Of a stretch of 64,000 nt of DNA, positions 18,278-64,000 are shown piece by piece. The notes under the pieces are model-generated. The model was not told the origin of the DNA and ran no database searches. It was given only the letters and a program-made list of their open reading frames with translations. How positions within the stretch are numbered: the first letter of the stretch is position 1; each line of letters starts with the position of its first letter. The translations under genes were made by a program, and so were the position numbers. The stretch is taken from positions 124,001 to 188,000 of the forward strand of contig JAMLGR010000001.1 in NCBI GenBank assembly GCA_023957775.1. Reading direction: 5' to 3'. Source of the DNA: Fimbriimonadaceae bacterium (GTDB taxonomy: Bacteria > Armatimonadota > Fimbriimonadia > Fimbriimonadales > Fimbriimonadaceae).

Positions 18278-19411
18278 ATGAGTCTGTGGATCGCACTGAT
18301 GGCCGCGACGGTTCTTGGACAGGGGCCCGGAGACCTTGAGGACCGAGTGGCGGAGGTCCTTCCCGCGGCTTCCGAGGAGCGGTGGCTCGCGATCCCGTGG
18401 CGGCTCGATCTGGACGAGGCCCGACGCGACGCGCAGACGACGGGCAAGCCGCTCTTCCTGTGGATCATGAACGGCCACCCGTTCGGCTGCACGTGAAACA
18501 ACGGCCTGTGGGACCGGTCGGTCACCTTCAGCGATGCGCGCGTGATCCAGAAGCTCACGACGGAGTTCATCCCGTTTGCCGGAGACACGCACGAGTTGCA
18601 GAACGGGAGATCCGCGGCACGCAACTGGTTCGTCGCCATGGCGCGGACGGTCAACCCCCGGATTTCCGACGGGCAGACCGCGCAGGGCTTCTACACTGCG
18701 TCGCCGGACGGCAAGGGTCTCGGCTTCAACAACAACCGCTCCGTGGAGAGAGTGCTGGGGTTGTTGGACCTTGGTCTGGCGAAGTCATCGCCGGCGTCGG
18801 GTCCGATCGAGCCGGCGCCCGGCGACCGTGGCGGCGCCCGCGAAGACGTCTTCGTCGCCCGCACGTTTACCCGCATCCGTCCGTTGCCGCCTGGATCCGC
18901 CGAGTCGAACAAGAACGTCGCGCGCGATCATCTGTGGATCTACCCGGCCGACGTGGAGGCGATCCTGGCGGGGAAGGGCGACCGCTTTCCGGCTCCCGCT
19001 GCGTTCGCCAGGCGCCTGGCCCGATTTCACTTGGTGGACAACGTGAGGGGCGAACCGGACATGTGGTCCGCGAGCGAGGTCCGTAAAGCGGAGCTGTTCG
19101 TCGTCCGGGACCCGCGCGGCTTCAAGCTTGAGGGCGACTTTGAGATGGAGACCGCCAACGGGAGCCGCGGACTCGACGCCTCGTTCGAGGGCTGGATCGA
19201 ACTCGACGGAGGGACGATCAAACGCTTCCTGGGCCTCGCGAAGGGCAAGGCTTGGGGGGCGGGGCGCTACACGCCCAATCCGCCCGAAGGGGTGTTTCCC
19301 ATCGTCGTTGCGATGGTCGAGGCGAACGATGCGGCGTCCAGGCGAGTCCCACCCCAGGGGCTGCTGTGGGGTCCCGAGTATCGGGGCTCCGGGGCGTTCG
19401 CGGGTCGCTAG
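18278..19411 (+). CDS. Probable selenoprotein: exported thioredoxin-like protein with in-frame TGA (Sec73)
   Basis: One frame of 378 codons interrupted by a single TGA at 18494-18496. The first part has a weak signal peptide (LWIALMAATVLGQG) and a thioredoxin-like strand-plus-redox motif: ARRDAQTTGKPLFLWIMNGH, then PFGCT-TGA-NNG. After the TGA the frame continues as FSDARVIQKLTTEFIPFAGD, the usual helix and strand after the redox site. TGA therefore falls at the second thiol position of a Cys-Thr-X motif, read as Cys71-Thr72-Sec73. The remaining 300 residues are of unknown family. A SECIS-like hairpin follows the TGA, and selA is in this window. TAGAAT ends 5 nt before the ATG. The alternative is a pseudogene or an assembly error; the intact frame on both sides argues against it. 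Confidence 0.72.
18497..18526 (+). promoter_or_regulatory. Candidate bacterial SECIS element
   Basis: Downstream of the TGA, GACC (18512-18515), loop GGTC (18516-18519) and GGTC (18520-18523) form a 4-bp stem with a GGUC loop, extendable below a G-A mismatch by G18510-C18525. In E. coli fdhF the SECIS loop also contains GGUC, beginning 19 nt after UGA; here it begins 20 nt after. Folding is by eye only. Confidence 0.5.
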
Positions 19412-21192
19412 CCCTTGTGCGGGACGCCGTCGTAGTACAGGCCCTCGCGCAAGGCCCGCTTCTGGAGATCTCCCGGCGCCGCGTCGTCGATCTTCGTGCC
19501 CGTGCGCGTGCTGAGCTCGGGCAGAATCCGCACCTCGATCTCTTCGCCGTCGCGAAGGACGCGCAGGAGGAGAACCTCGTCCGTGGTGGCCTTCTCGAGG
19601 ATGGGTTGCAGGGTGGCGTAGATCGCTCGCGTTGTCGGGAGCTTGAGACTCTTGCCGTTGGCCTCGATGATCCGGTCGCCGTCCCGGAGACGGTCTTTCG
19701 CCGGGCCGTGGACGTTGCGGACGCGGACGGCTTGCTCGGCGCGAACCGCAGCCCAGTCGAAACCAACGTCGACGAACCGATCCAGCCGCTCGGACATCCG
19801 AAGACCGATCTTGGCCAACTGCTCCTCGACGGGAAGTTCGCCGGGCTGCATGACGATCTTGTCGTAGAACGGGCCGAGGGCGGGTCCCCCAAAGCGTACG
19901 CACTGTTTTCGGATCTCATCCTCCGCAAAGCCCGGCTTCCCGTTTCGGCAAAGATCCCACAGGGCGCGCATCACGTCGTCGAGGGATCGCTTGCCGCCGG
20001 TCTGGCTGCGGATTTCGATGTCCAGACACAGGCCCAAAAGCCACCCCGTGTCGTAGTAGCTGACGCCGAACCCTTGGCTGTTTCCTCTGCCGCCGGCCGC
20101 CTCGCCAACGCGGAAGCTGGCGTCGTAGGGCGACACCTCGAGCCGCTGCGGTCGAGCCCGCACCGTGCGCACGTTGTCGAGGATGTCTTGGTGGAACCGG
20201 TCCGTATCCCACCAGCCGTATCGGTGCAGAAGGTGGTGGGCGTAGTAGTCGGTCACGCCCTCCAGCCACCAGAGCGCTCCGGTCTTGGGCAGTTGCGTGT
20301 AGTCGAAGGGGCCCAGGGGTGCGGACCGGATGCGCTTGACGTTCCAGAGGTGGAAGAATTCGTGCGCCAGGACGGACACGGCCCTCGGGCCCACTCCGCT
20401 TGCGAGCGAGATCTGGGTGCTGGAAAGGTGTTCGAGCCCTCCCGCTCCGTCCGGGCTGTCGTTGACGTTGAAGTGCCACACGTACTTGGAGTAGGGCAGG
20501 CCGCCGAAGAAGTCGCCTTCGGACTCGGTGACGAAGCGGCACGCCTTGACGAGACCCTCTCGGTCGACATCGTCGGCGGCCCCTCCCCGCAACGCGATGA
20601 AGTGAGGCTTGCCCTGCACCACGTAGCCCAAGAGGGCAAACTCTCCGAGCGTCGCGGGATTGTCCGCGAGCACGTCGTAGTTCGGCGCGTAGAAGGTGTT
20701 CTTGGCGCCCTTCGATTCGTCGAGCCCGATGGCGACGATCCACTTGTCCGGCATCGAGAAAGCCACCGTGCACGGTTCTCGAAGGCGATCGACCACGTAA
20801 AGGTAGGTGCTCGGGCCGCTGAAGTGCATGGCCCCGCCCACCATCGGGCTGGGGCACGTGTAACGAACGGTCACCGATTTGGCTCCGCTCGGAGCCAGCG
20901 ACCAGGTCCAATCGTCGGGGTGCTGCACCTCGACGGCCTTTCCCGACTCATCTACCGCCGTCAGGTCTCGCACGTTTCGGAAGTTCGTCGTGAGCCGATA
21001 GCTGCCTGGAGCCCAACGGGGCATCTGCAGGCGGACGCCCTCGCTCGGGCTCGGAATCGTGATCGACAGCTTCAGGCTCTCATTCGCAGGATCTGGCTCG
21101 ACTCGATATTGGAGGTCGGCGCCCGCCAGGGAACAGACGGCGAATGCGAGTGCGAGCAGCATGCCGCGGGTGGTGTTCTTCGTGCCACGCAT
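19408..21192 (-). CDS. Exported M61-family metallopeptidase with PDZ domain
   Basis: 594 residues with a signal peptide (MLLALAFAVCSLAGA). The N-terminal beta domain contains MPRWAPGSYRL, typical of M61 glycyl aminopeptidases. The gluzincin core is LAHEFFHLWNVKRIRS (HExxH, two zinc ligands) with the third ligand in WWLEGVTDYYAHHLL. A PDZ domain follows near residues 490-560 (RNVHGPAKDRLRDGDRIIEA). M61 enzymes are aminopeptidases with a preference for Gly/Ala in characterised members. ATG at 21192 gives the signal peptide; the longer frame upstream overlaps the divergent carbonic anhydrase promoter. CACAAT ends 6 nt before the ATG. Confidence 0.92.
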   Translation of the reverse strand: MRGTKNTTRGMLLALAFAVCSLAGADLQYRVEPDPANESLKLSITIPSPSEGVRLQMPRWAPGSYRLTTNFRNVRDLTAVDESGKAVEVQHPDDWTWSLAPSGAKSVTVRYTCPSPMVGGAMHFSGPSTYLYVVDRLREPCTVAFSMPDKWIVAIGLDESKGAKNTFYAPNYDVLADNPATLGEFALLGYVVQGKPHFIALRGGAADDVDREGLVKACRFVTESEGDFFGGLPYSKYVWHFNVNDSPDGAGGLEHLSSTQISLASGVGPRAVSVLAHEFFHLWNVKRIRSAPLGPFDYTQLPKTGALWWLEGVTDYYAHHLLHRYGWWDTDRFHQDILDNVRTVRARPQRLEVSPYDASFRVGEAAGGRGNSQGFGVSYYDTGWLLGLCLDIEIRSQTGGKRSLDDVMRALWDLCRNGKPGFAEDEIRKQCVRFGGPALGPFYDKIVMQPGELPVEEQLAKIGLRMSERLDRFVDVGFDWAAVRAEQAVRVRNVHGPAKDRLRDGDRIIEANGKSLKLPTTRAIYATLQPILEKATTDEVLLLRVLRDGEEIEVRILPELSTRTGTKIDDAAPGDLQKRALREGLYYDGVPHKG

Positions 21193-21228
21193 GACCCCAT
21201 TGTGACCGACCGGGTAGGGTAACTCGAA

Positions 21229-21825
21229 GTGGAGATGGCGAACGACGAAGCAAGGAGAATCCTCGAAGAGCTGAAAGAAGGGAATCGACGATTCCGAGAG
21301 GGACGTTCCCAGCACCGGACCTATTCCCAGCCAGAGTTGGCCCATTTGGCGGCTGGACAAGCGCCGCGCGCGGCAATCGTGGCCTGTTCCGACAGCAGGG
21401 TGGTCCCCGAAGTGCTGTTCGATCAACCCCTTGGGGCGCTCTTTGTGAGCCGCGTGCCCGGCAACGTCGCCTCCGACGGGACGCGTTGGATGATCGAAAT
21501 CGCGATGTCCGCCTTCGAAATCCCTCTCGTCGTCGTACTCGGGCACACCGGCTGCCTAGCCGTGAAATCGATTGTGGAGGACACCTCCGGATCCGAGGGC
21601 GGGCTCCTTCGCCTCAAGACGATCCGTGCCGTCGCTCGCGCGCGCATGCGGCCGGGTGGCGACCTGCTTCGGACCGCCGTGGAGGAGAATGCCCGGAGTT
21701 CGGTGGAGGAGTTATCGCAAGAGAGCGCGATCCTGCGTGCCGCCATCGTCGGAGGACGCACGCACGCCGTCGCGATGGTCTACGAGATGGAGACTGGGAC
21801 GGTCCACGACATTGTGGGGGCCTAG
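21229..21825 (+). CDS. Beta-class carbonic anhydrase
   Basis: Interconverts CO2 and bicarbonate using zinc. 198 residues. The zinc ligands and dyad are visible: Cys in VACSDSRVVPE with the Asp-Arg pair, and His/Cys in LGHTGC. The segment FVSRVPGNVASDG is the typical RNAGN-like region. Start at GTG 21229 or ATG 21235, two codons later; TAGGGT lies 8 nt before the GTG. Its stop shares CTAG with the convergent DUF423 gene. Confidence 0.93.
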   Translation: MEMANDEARRILEELKEGNRRFREGRSQHRTYSQPELAHLAAGQAPRAAIVACSDSRVVPEVLFDQPLGALFVSRVPGNVASDGTRWMIEIAMSAFEIPLVVVLGHTGCLAVKSIVEDTSGSEGGLLRLKTIRAVARARMRPGGDLLRTAVEENARSSVEELSQESAILRAAIVGGRTHAVAMVYEMETGTVHDIVGA

Positions 21826-63285: not shown

Positions 63286-64000
63286 ATGACCGGATTACGA
63301 TCGCTCCCCAAGGTCGATGTTCTCGCACAACACCCCGCGTTGTCGTCCTACGCACCCGCCCTGCGTGCCGAGTCGGCCCGCAAGGCCATCGCTTGGGCCA
63401 GGACAGAACTCAAGGCAGGACGCGAAGTCGCGCGCGAGGCGATCGAGGCGCGGGCGGAGGCCGAGGCGGGGCGCGCCGCCCAGGCGTCTCTCAGGCCCGT
63501 CATCAACGCCTCCGGCGTGATTCTCCATACGGGGCTGGGCAGGGCGCGGCTCGCAGCAGAGGCCGTCGAGCAGATCCGAGCGGCCAGCGCTTCGCACGCG
63601 GCGGTGGAGTTCGACCTGGCGGAGGGGACTCGGGGCGACCGCCAAGCCCACGTCGAAACGATGTTGTGCTCGCTCACGGGAGCAGAGGCCGCCCATGTGG
63701 TCAACAACGCCGCCGCTGCGGTGTTCCTCTCCTTGGCCTCGGTGGCCTCGGGGAGGGAAGTGGTGCTCTCCCGCGGCCAGATGGTGGAGATCGGAGGCTC
63801 CTTCCGGATGCCCGACATCGTGCGAAACAGCGGATGCCGCCTCGTCGAAGTGGGCTGCACCAACAAGACGCGACTGTCGGACTACCGCGAAGCGCTAGGC
63901 GAGGAGACGGGCGCCATTCTCCGCTGCCATCCGAGCAACTTCCGCATCGTTGGCTTCGTCGAAGAACCTTCGCTCGGTGAGCTGGTCGCCCTCGCCGACG
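63286..64000 (+). CDS. selA: L-seryl-tRNA(Sec) selenium transferase SelA (partial, 3' end beyond the window)
   Basis: 238 residues of the N-terminal half. Family text: LPKVDVLAQHPAL, RPVINASGVILHTGLGRARL, VEFDLAEGTRGDRQAHVETM, LTGAEAAHVVNNAAAAVFLS, LSRGQMVEIGGSFRMPDI, EVGCTNKTRLSDY. SelA is a PLP enzyme converting Ser-tRNA(Sec) to Sec-tRNA(Sec) with selenophosphate, so the organism should decode UGA as selenocysteine at suitable sites. The PLP lysine lies beyond the window edge. TAAACT ends 8 nt before the ATG. selB and selD are expected outside. Confidence 0.95.
   Translation, partial: MTGLRSLPKVDVLAQHPALSSYAPALRAESARKAIAWARTELKAGREVAREAIEARAEAEAGRAAQASLRPVINASGVILHTGLGRARLAAEAVEQIRAASASHAAVEFDLAEGTRGDRQAHVETMLCSLTGAEAAHVVNNAAAAVFLSLASVASGREVVLSRGQMVEIGGSFRMPDIVRNSGCRLVEVGCTNKTRLSDYREALGEETGAILRCHPSNFRIVGFVEEPSLGELVALAD

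Follow-up and report, generated by a model that had tools for sequence, protein, structure and literature searches.

A predicted selenocysteine-based thioredoxin-like protein family, not found as described, at an in-frame TGA in a Fimbriimonadaceae genome

Does the one TGA that interrupts an otherwise open frame in a 64,000-nucleotide stretch from a Fimbriimonadaceae bacterium (contig JAMLGR010000001.1, positions 124,001 to 188,000; the whole stretch is called the window here) end a protein or encode selenocysteine (Sec), and what would the protein then do? An earlier note on this DNA had proposed a thioredoxin-like selenoprotein. Re-reading 18278-19411 on the forward strand bears out its single in-frame TGA at 18494-18496, and with that TGA read as Sec the frame gives 377 residues before a final TAG; the 378 codons counted in the note include the stop, the frame being otherwise open as it said. 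The sole interrupting TGA is codon 73, and the residues flanking Sec73 are KPLFLWIMNGHPFGC-T-U-NNGLWDRSVTFSD. Very probably the gene encodes an exported, Sec-dependent redox enzyme of thioredoxin fold, with Sec73 decoded from UGA, Cys71 as its probable partner and a C-terminal barrel that probably serves a substrate or partner. Decoding of the UGA as Sec is strongly supported by comparison among relatives.

The codon is kept across a large family. Reading all fetched loci with the family profile, we found at column 73 in 165 distinct members TGA 155 times, TCN (Ser) six times, GAY (Asp) three times, TGC (Cys) once and TAA or TAG never; the main non-TGA full-length matches were fetched on purpose and the profile, built mostly from TGA members, may favour the TGA form, so that the ratio of 155 to 165 is not an unbiased census. 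A sequencing error, which the earlier note had named as an outcome that would undo its proposal, can be excluded, since genomes sequenced independently of one another carry the same codon, and a chance TGA is excluded because relatives keep it with similarity on both sides. Of the 60 related genomes that were searched, 22 hold family members; the closest of these align with the window protein before and after the TGA, along almost their whole length, at 43-53% identity, and nearly every one contains just one internal TGA. Judged from these alignments, the TGA at codon 73 is neither an error nor the mark of a pseudogene. The note had also proposed looking for Cys or TGA at this column in homologues; TGA is what was found, and with a single Cys among the 165 members a test by Cys homologues is a poor one for this family, since it has almost none.

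The gene and its parts, with the basis of each, are as follows.

18278..19411, + strand: selenoprotein gene, 377 residues, Sec at residue 73, final stop TAG (frame and relatives).
18278..18322, + strand: hydrophobic stretch at the N-terminus, short and probably a signal peptide; relatives show it more clearly, e.g. MKRTAIALLLLLPLAAISSA (sequences of the protein and its relatives).
18383..18799, + strand: predicted thioredoxin-like domain, residues about 36-174 (AlphaFold model; VIA-align Z 13.2 to 1sen and 12.8 to 3ph9).
18488..18490, + strand: Cys71, at -2 from Sec (136 of the 155 TGA members have Cys here).
18494..18496, + strand: TGA read as selenocysteine 73 (column counts given above; Sec machinery).
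18510..18526, + strand: hairpin resembling a selenocysteine insertion sequence (SECIS), with a GACC/GGTC stem, the loop GGTC (18516-18519) and two more pairs possible across a bulged A (weak by itself, with p = 0.245 when compared with synonymous recodings).
18845..19333, + strand: predicted C-terminal small beta-barrel domain, residues about 190-352, without a confident relative (model and structure searches).
63286..64000, + strand: start of selA, which continues beyond the window end (profile match G000:C1:187295-188584, 504.8 bits).

Family members come from three phyla: that of the source genome; Planctomycetota; and a third, represented by a record titled Gemmatimonadetes. A scan of named genomes returned 17 loci; the record titles name planctomycetes of various groups in 16 cases and Gemmatimonadetes in one. 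With a profile of 39 members and a threshold of E below 1e-15, surveys detected the family in 39 of 113 genomes from the source genome's class and in 53 of 291 from its phylum. For the phylum of the Gemmatimonadetes-titled record the figure was 18 of 64, and each of the 20 matches listed there has one TGA. A match at E below 1e-60 occurs in more than 70 of the 294 genomes from the phylum to which Planctomycetes strain Pla163 belongs. Several genomes carry two to five copies. The source genome itself has a second member on contig 12 (L048, G000:C12:98439-99578), 45% identical to the window protein, in which Sec is kept and the Cys at -2 is lost (motif GTTU).

The source genome has what such a codon would need. 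The selA gene that the earlier note had placed at 63286 is confirmed by its profile match and starts near the right end of the window, and selB, selC and selD, which the note had suggested looking for, are all present in the genome (selB, 365.5 bits; tRNA-Sec with anticodon TCA, 76.5 bits; selD, 349.9 bits). The selD gene (L063, G000:C4:95494-96399) carries an in-frame TGA of its own and, because of it, is probably a selenoprotein gene too. Across the class, selB exceeds its cut-off in 31 of the 35 genomes with a TGA member versus 26 of the 78 without one (Fisher p = 2.5e-8, with no correction for kinship). The four genomes with a TGA member and no selB over the cut-off are 68-88% complete, and two genomes holding only Ser or Asp forms (G099, G023) likewise have no selB over it.

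These data bear directly on two readings of the codon other than Sec. That the TGA is a real stop, yielding a short N-terminal product or a pseudogene, is what standard annotation would call, and the weakness of the window's own hairpin agrees with it; against this stand the TGA in 155 of 165 members from three phyla, a downstream region that is conserved as well, the complete Sec machinery and the co-occurrence of the TGA form with selB, and we regard a stop as very improbable. Even less credible is a TGA read as another amino acid, for instance Trp by a changed code or by plain readthrough: an open frame under a changed code is indeed no proof of Sec, but relatives with a sense codon at the column have Ser, Asp or Cys and never Trp, and the genome has tRNA-Sec (anticodon TCA), selA, selB and selD, which occur together with the TGA form.

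We also compared the bases after the TGA with synonymous recodings, using the geometry of bacterial SECIS elements (a loop about 16-37 bases after the UGA, with G in the first two loop positions). The mean z was -1.66 over 152 members against -0.08 over 1212 control windows from the same genes, and 43% of the 152 members reached p <= 0.05; SECIS-shaped hairpins after the TGA are thus more frequent than coding constraint accounts for. Folding energy by itself gave an unconvincing contrast (mean z -0.85 versus -0.26), the SECIS-geometry test being the clearer one. Many planctomycete-type members share the hairpin CCAGRC-(G/A)GUCU-GUCUGG, with AGA or AGG as the codon for Arg80; where the Ala-Arg context places this codon in the stem, 24 of 28 members use AGA or AGG, against 8.7% elsewhere in these genes. 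Stems differ among other subgroups, one of which (L042, L043, L052-L054) has a pair of strong hairpins, one following the other, downstream of the TGA (GGCGTC..GACGCC, then GGTCT-GGTC-AGACC). On the SECIS question raised in the earlier note, the family shows an excess of such hairpins and the window's own hairpin is weak. The note's central proposal, that the gene encodes a selenoprotein, is supported by the conserved column, the complete machinery, the co-occurrence with selB and this family-wide excess.

The predicted structure places Sec73 in an active site. The AlphaFold model has a mean predicted local distance difference test score (pLDDT) of 92.9 and a predicted template modelling score of 0.90, and VIA-align matches residues about 36-174 to TXNDC12/ERp19 (1sen; Z 13.2, root-mean-square deviation 2.5 over 117 residues), 3f9u (Z 13.2), AGR3 (3ph9; Z 12.8) and DsbD-gamma (Z about 9.8). 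The model thus supports a thioredoxin-like fold for this part, nearest to TXNDC12/ERp19 and AGR3, in agreement with the earlier note. Sequence searches of the PDB gave nothing for the single protein and, with the profile, only 3f9u below 0.01. The note had put the TGA at the second thiol of the redox motif; the profile aligns this column instead with the first Cys of GCVNC in 3f9u, and in the model the active-site helix begins at residue 74. Sec73 therefore occupies the nucleophile position. The motif is C-T-U-N-N-G: Sec73 replaces the nucleophilic Cys, the resolving Cys is replaced by Gly76, and at -2 from Sec there is an additional thiol, Cys71.

Residues about 190-352 are modelled as a small beta-barrel (pLDDT 94.1 when modelled alone). 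Foldseek gave no match at E <= 0.001 either for the whole model or for the C-terminal part, the best VIA-align score for the barrel was Z 6.0 (Rv2717c), within the range of chance arrangements, and no Pfam family covers the barrel. The C-terminal part amounts to about 190-200 residues and not the 300 of the earlier note, since the thioredoxin-like domain reaches about residue 174.

From these parts a mechanism can be proposed. UGA codon 73 would be decoded by SelA, SelB, SelD and tRNA-Sec, helped by the hairpin just downstream; Sec73, at the start of the active-site helix, would act as the nucleophile and attack a peroxide or a disulfide. Cys71 would stand in for the resolving Cys at +3, where Gly76 lies, and probably forms a selenenylsulfide with Sec73, and the C-terminal barrel probably binds a substrate or partner and so gives substrate choice. 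Export is likely, to judge from the hydrophobic N-terminus, which is clearly signal-like in relatives. The most likely chemistry would be reduction of peroxides or of disulfides and sulfenic acids in the cell envelope, with recycling by an external thiol system. In members without a nearby Cys (TTU, MTU, STU), resolution of Sec would depend on an external thiol. What emerges is a putative stand-alone, exported selenol redox enzyme whose fold is predicted and whose chemistry we infer.

The residues at and around the Sec column vary across the family. Cys stands at -2 in 136 of the 155 TGA members, ten have it at -1 instead (mostly GHCU) and nine, including the second copy in the source genome, at neither position. 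The -1 arrangement includes a subclade (L047, L209-L214, L216) with the motif GHCUQNG, where Cys directly precedes Sec. In a tree of 93 members with the motif columns left out (a quick tree with a midpoint root and some long branches), the non-TGA forms reflect at least four changes nested within TGA groups; Sec thus looks ancestral, apparently lost several times to Ser or Asp and once to Cys. In the lone Cys-form member, this Cys sits in a CDDC motif. Members with Ser or Asp at the Sec column (L102-L106, L100, L044-L046) sometimes have a few extra residues before it, and they are possibly inactive forms kept for another role.

Several points weigh against an exported Sec-dependent redox enzyme as proposed. 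The losses of Sec are mostly to Ser or Asp, unlike what a plain thiol enzyme would lead one to expect; Cys71 is not universal and is absent even from the genome's own second copy (GTTU); and among 12 loci, examined about 7 kb to each side, no gene neighbourhood is conserved that would point to a substrate, the one shared neighbour being an M61 peptidase-like gene found also beside one relative. The window's own hairpin (GACC-GGUC-GGUC, 4 pairs plus two across a bulge) is weak, and kinship among the sequences inflates both the selB co-occurrence and the hairpin statistics. Sec73 might instead be real and put to a use other than thiol-disulfide or peroxide chemistry, such as binding a metal or a selenium or sulfur compound, or redox sensing; the Ser and Asp replacements, the dispensable Cys at -2 and a C-terminal barrel that could be a binding domain would fit such a role. 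However, about 94% of TGA members have Cys at one of the two positions just before Sec, and Sec at the nucleophile position of a thioredoxin fold is in nearly all known cases a redox arrangement. We consider such a use unlikely and prefer the redox enzyme.

Next to the gene, an M61 glycyl aminopeptidase-like gene (19408-21546, - strand) lies tail to tail with it, overlapping by 4 bases. At one relative locus (L114), a gene related to this neighbour also adjoins a family member.

A wider proposal, which we hold tentatively and at somewhat less than an even chance, is that this is a large, ancestrally Sec-based family, spread over at least three phyla in several copies per genome, with a chemistry impossible with Cys, so that loss of Sec leads to Ser or Asp and catalysis is given up. 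Nearly all selenoproteins have Cys homologues, and selenoprotein searches rely on them (PMC13188914). If obligate use of Sec is correct, the family would be an exception to these near-universal Cys counterparts, and the question becomes what Sec does here that Cys cannot. Searches by Cys/Sec pairs would pass the family by because one of 165 members has Cys, and reliance on Cys homologues may explain its escape from discovery. Annotation pipelines would call its members as fragments. A sizeable selenoprotein family is added in Planctomycetota, in the phylum of the source genome and in the third phylum.

Neither Pfam nor NCBIfam (June 2026) has a model whose cut-off the window protein exceeds, and among the 119 prokaryotic selenoprotein families catalogued in 2026 (PMC13188914, Table 1) none has the same domain and Sec motif. 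A description of the family was not found in the literature, where an earlier mention in planctomycete selenoprotein tables or in work on groundwater metagenome-assembled genomes is possible. Its absence from these three collections, and its not having been found as described, agree with the earlier note, which did not recognise the type as a described family.

Among known systems, the Thioredoxin_7 (PF13899)/ERp19-AGR/DsbD-gamma group shares the fold of residues 36-174, but the window protein scores 11.9 bits against a cut-off of 27, has C-x-U-x-x-G in place of CxxC and carries the extra C-terminal barrel. Eukaryotic SELENON, a lead only, has Cys directly before Sec at a helix start, like the GHCU subclade; a SELENON fragment gave no PDB match, and nothing follows for kinship. 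The Trx7/PDZ (seleno)protein NF041199 is likewise a Thioredoxin_7-type selenoprotein, but it has a CxxU motif and a PDZ domain, whereas the window protein reaches 10.7 bits against a cut-off of 300 and has no PDZ match in Pfam. The VPGUxxT proteins (NF041382, NF041383), with Trx7/PDZ the nearest selenoprotein models, are also thioredoxin-like and lack Cys at +3 from Sec; they match 7 and 5 of 39 family members weakly (best 4.1e-6), but their motif is VPGUxxT and not GCTUNNG, the window protein is unmatched at E <= 1, and the relation is distant. Finally, a Cys two residues before Sec is shared with the prokaryotic CxU selenoproteins, namely rhodanese form 3, UshA-like, ferredoxin-thioredoxin reductase and Trx-like Sec.1 (PMC13188914, Table 1), which differ from the family described here by their domains (NF041203/rhodanese, NF041198, NF041072 and PF13192).
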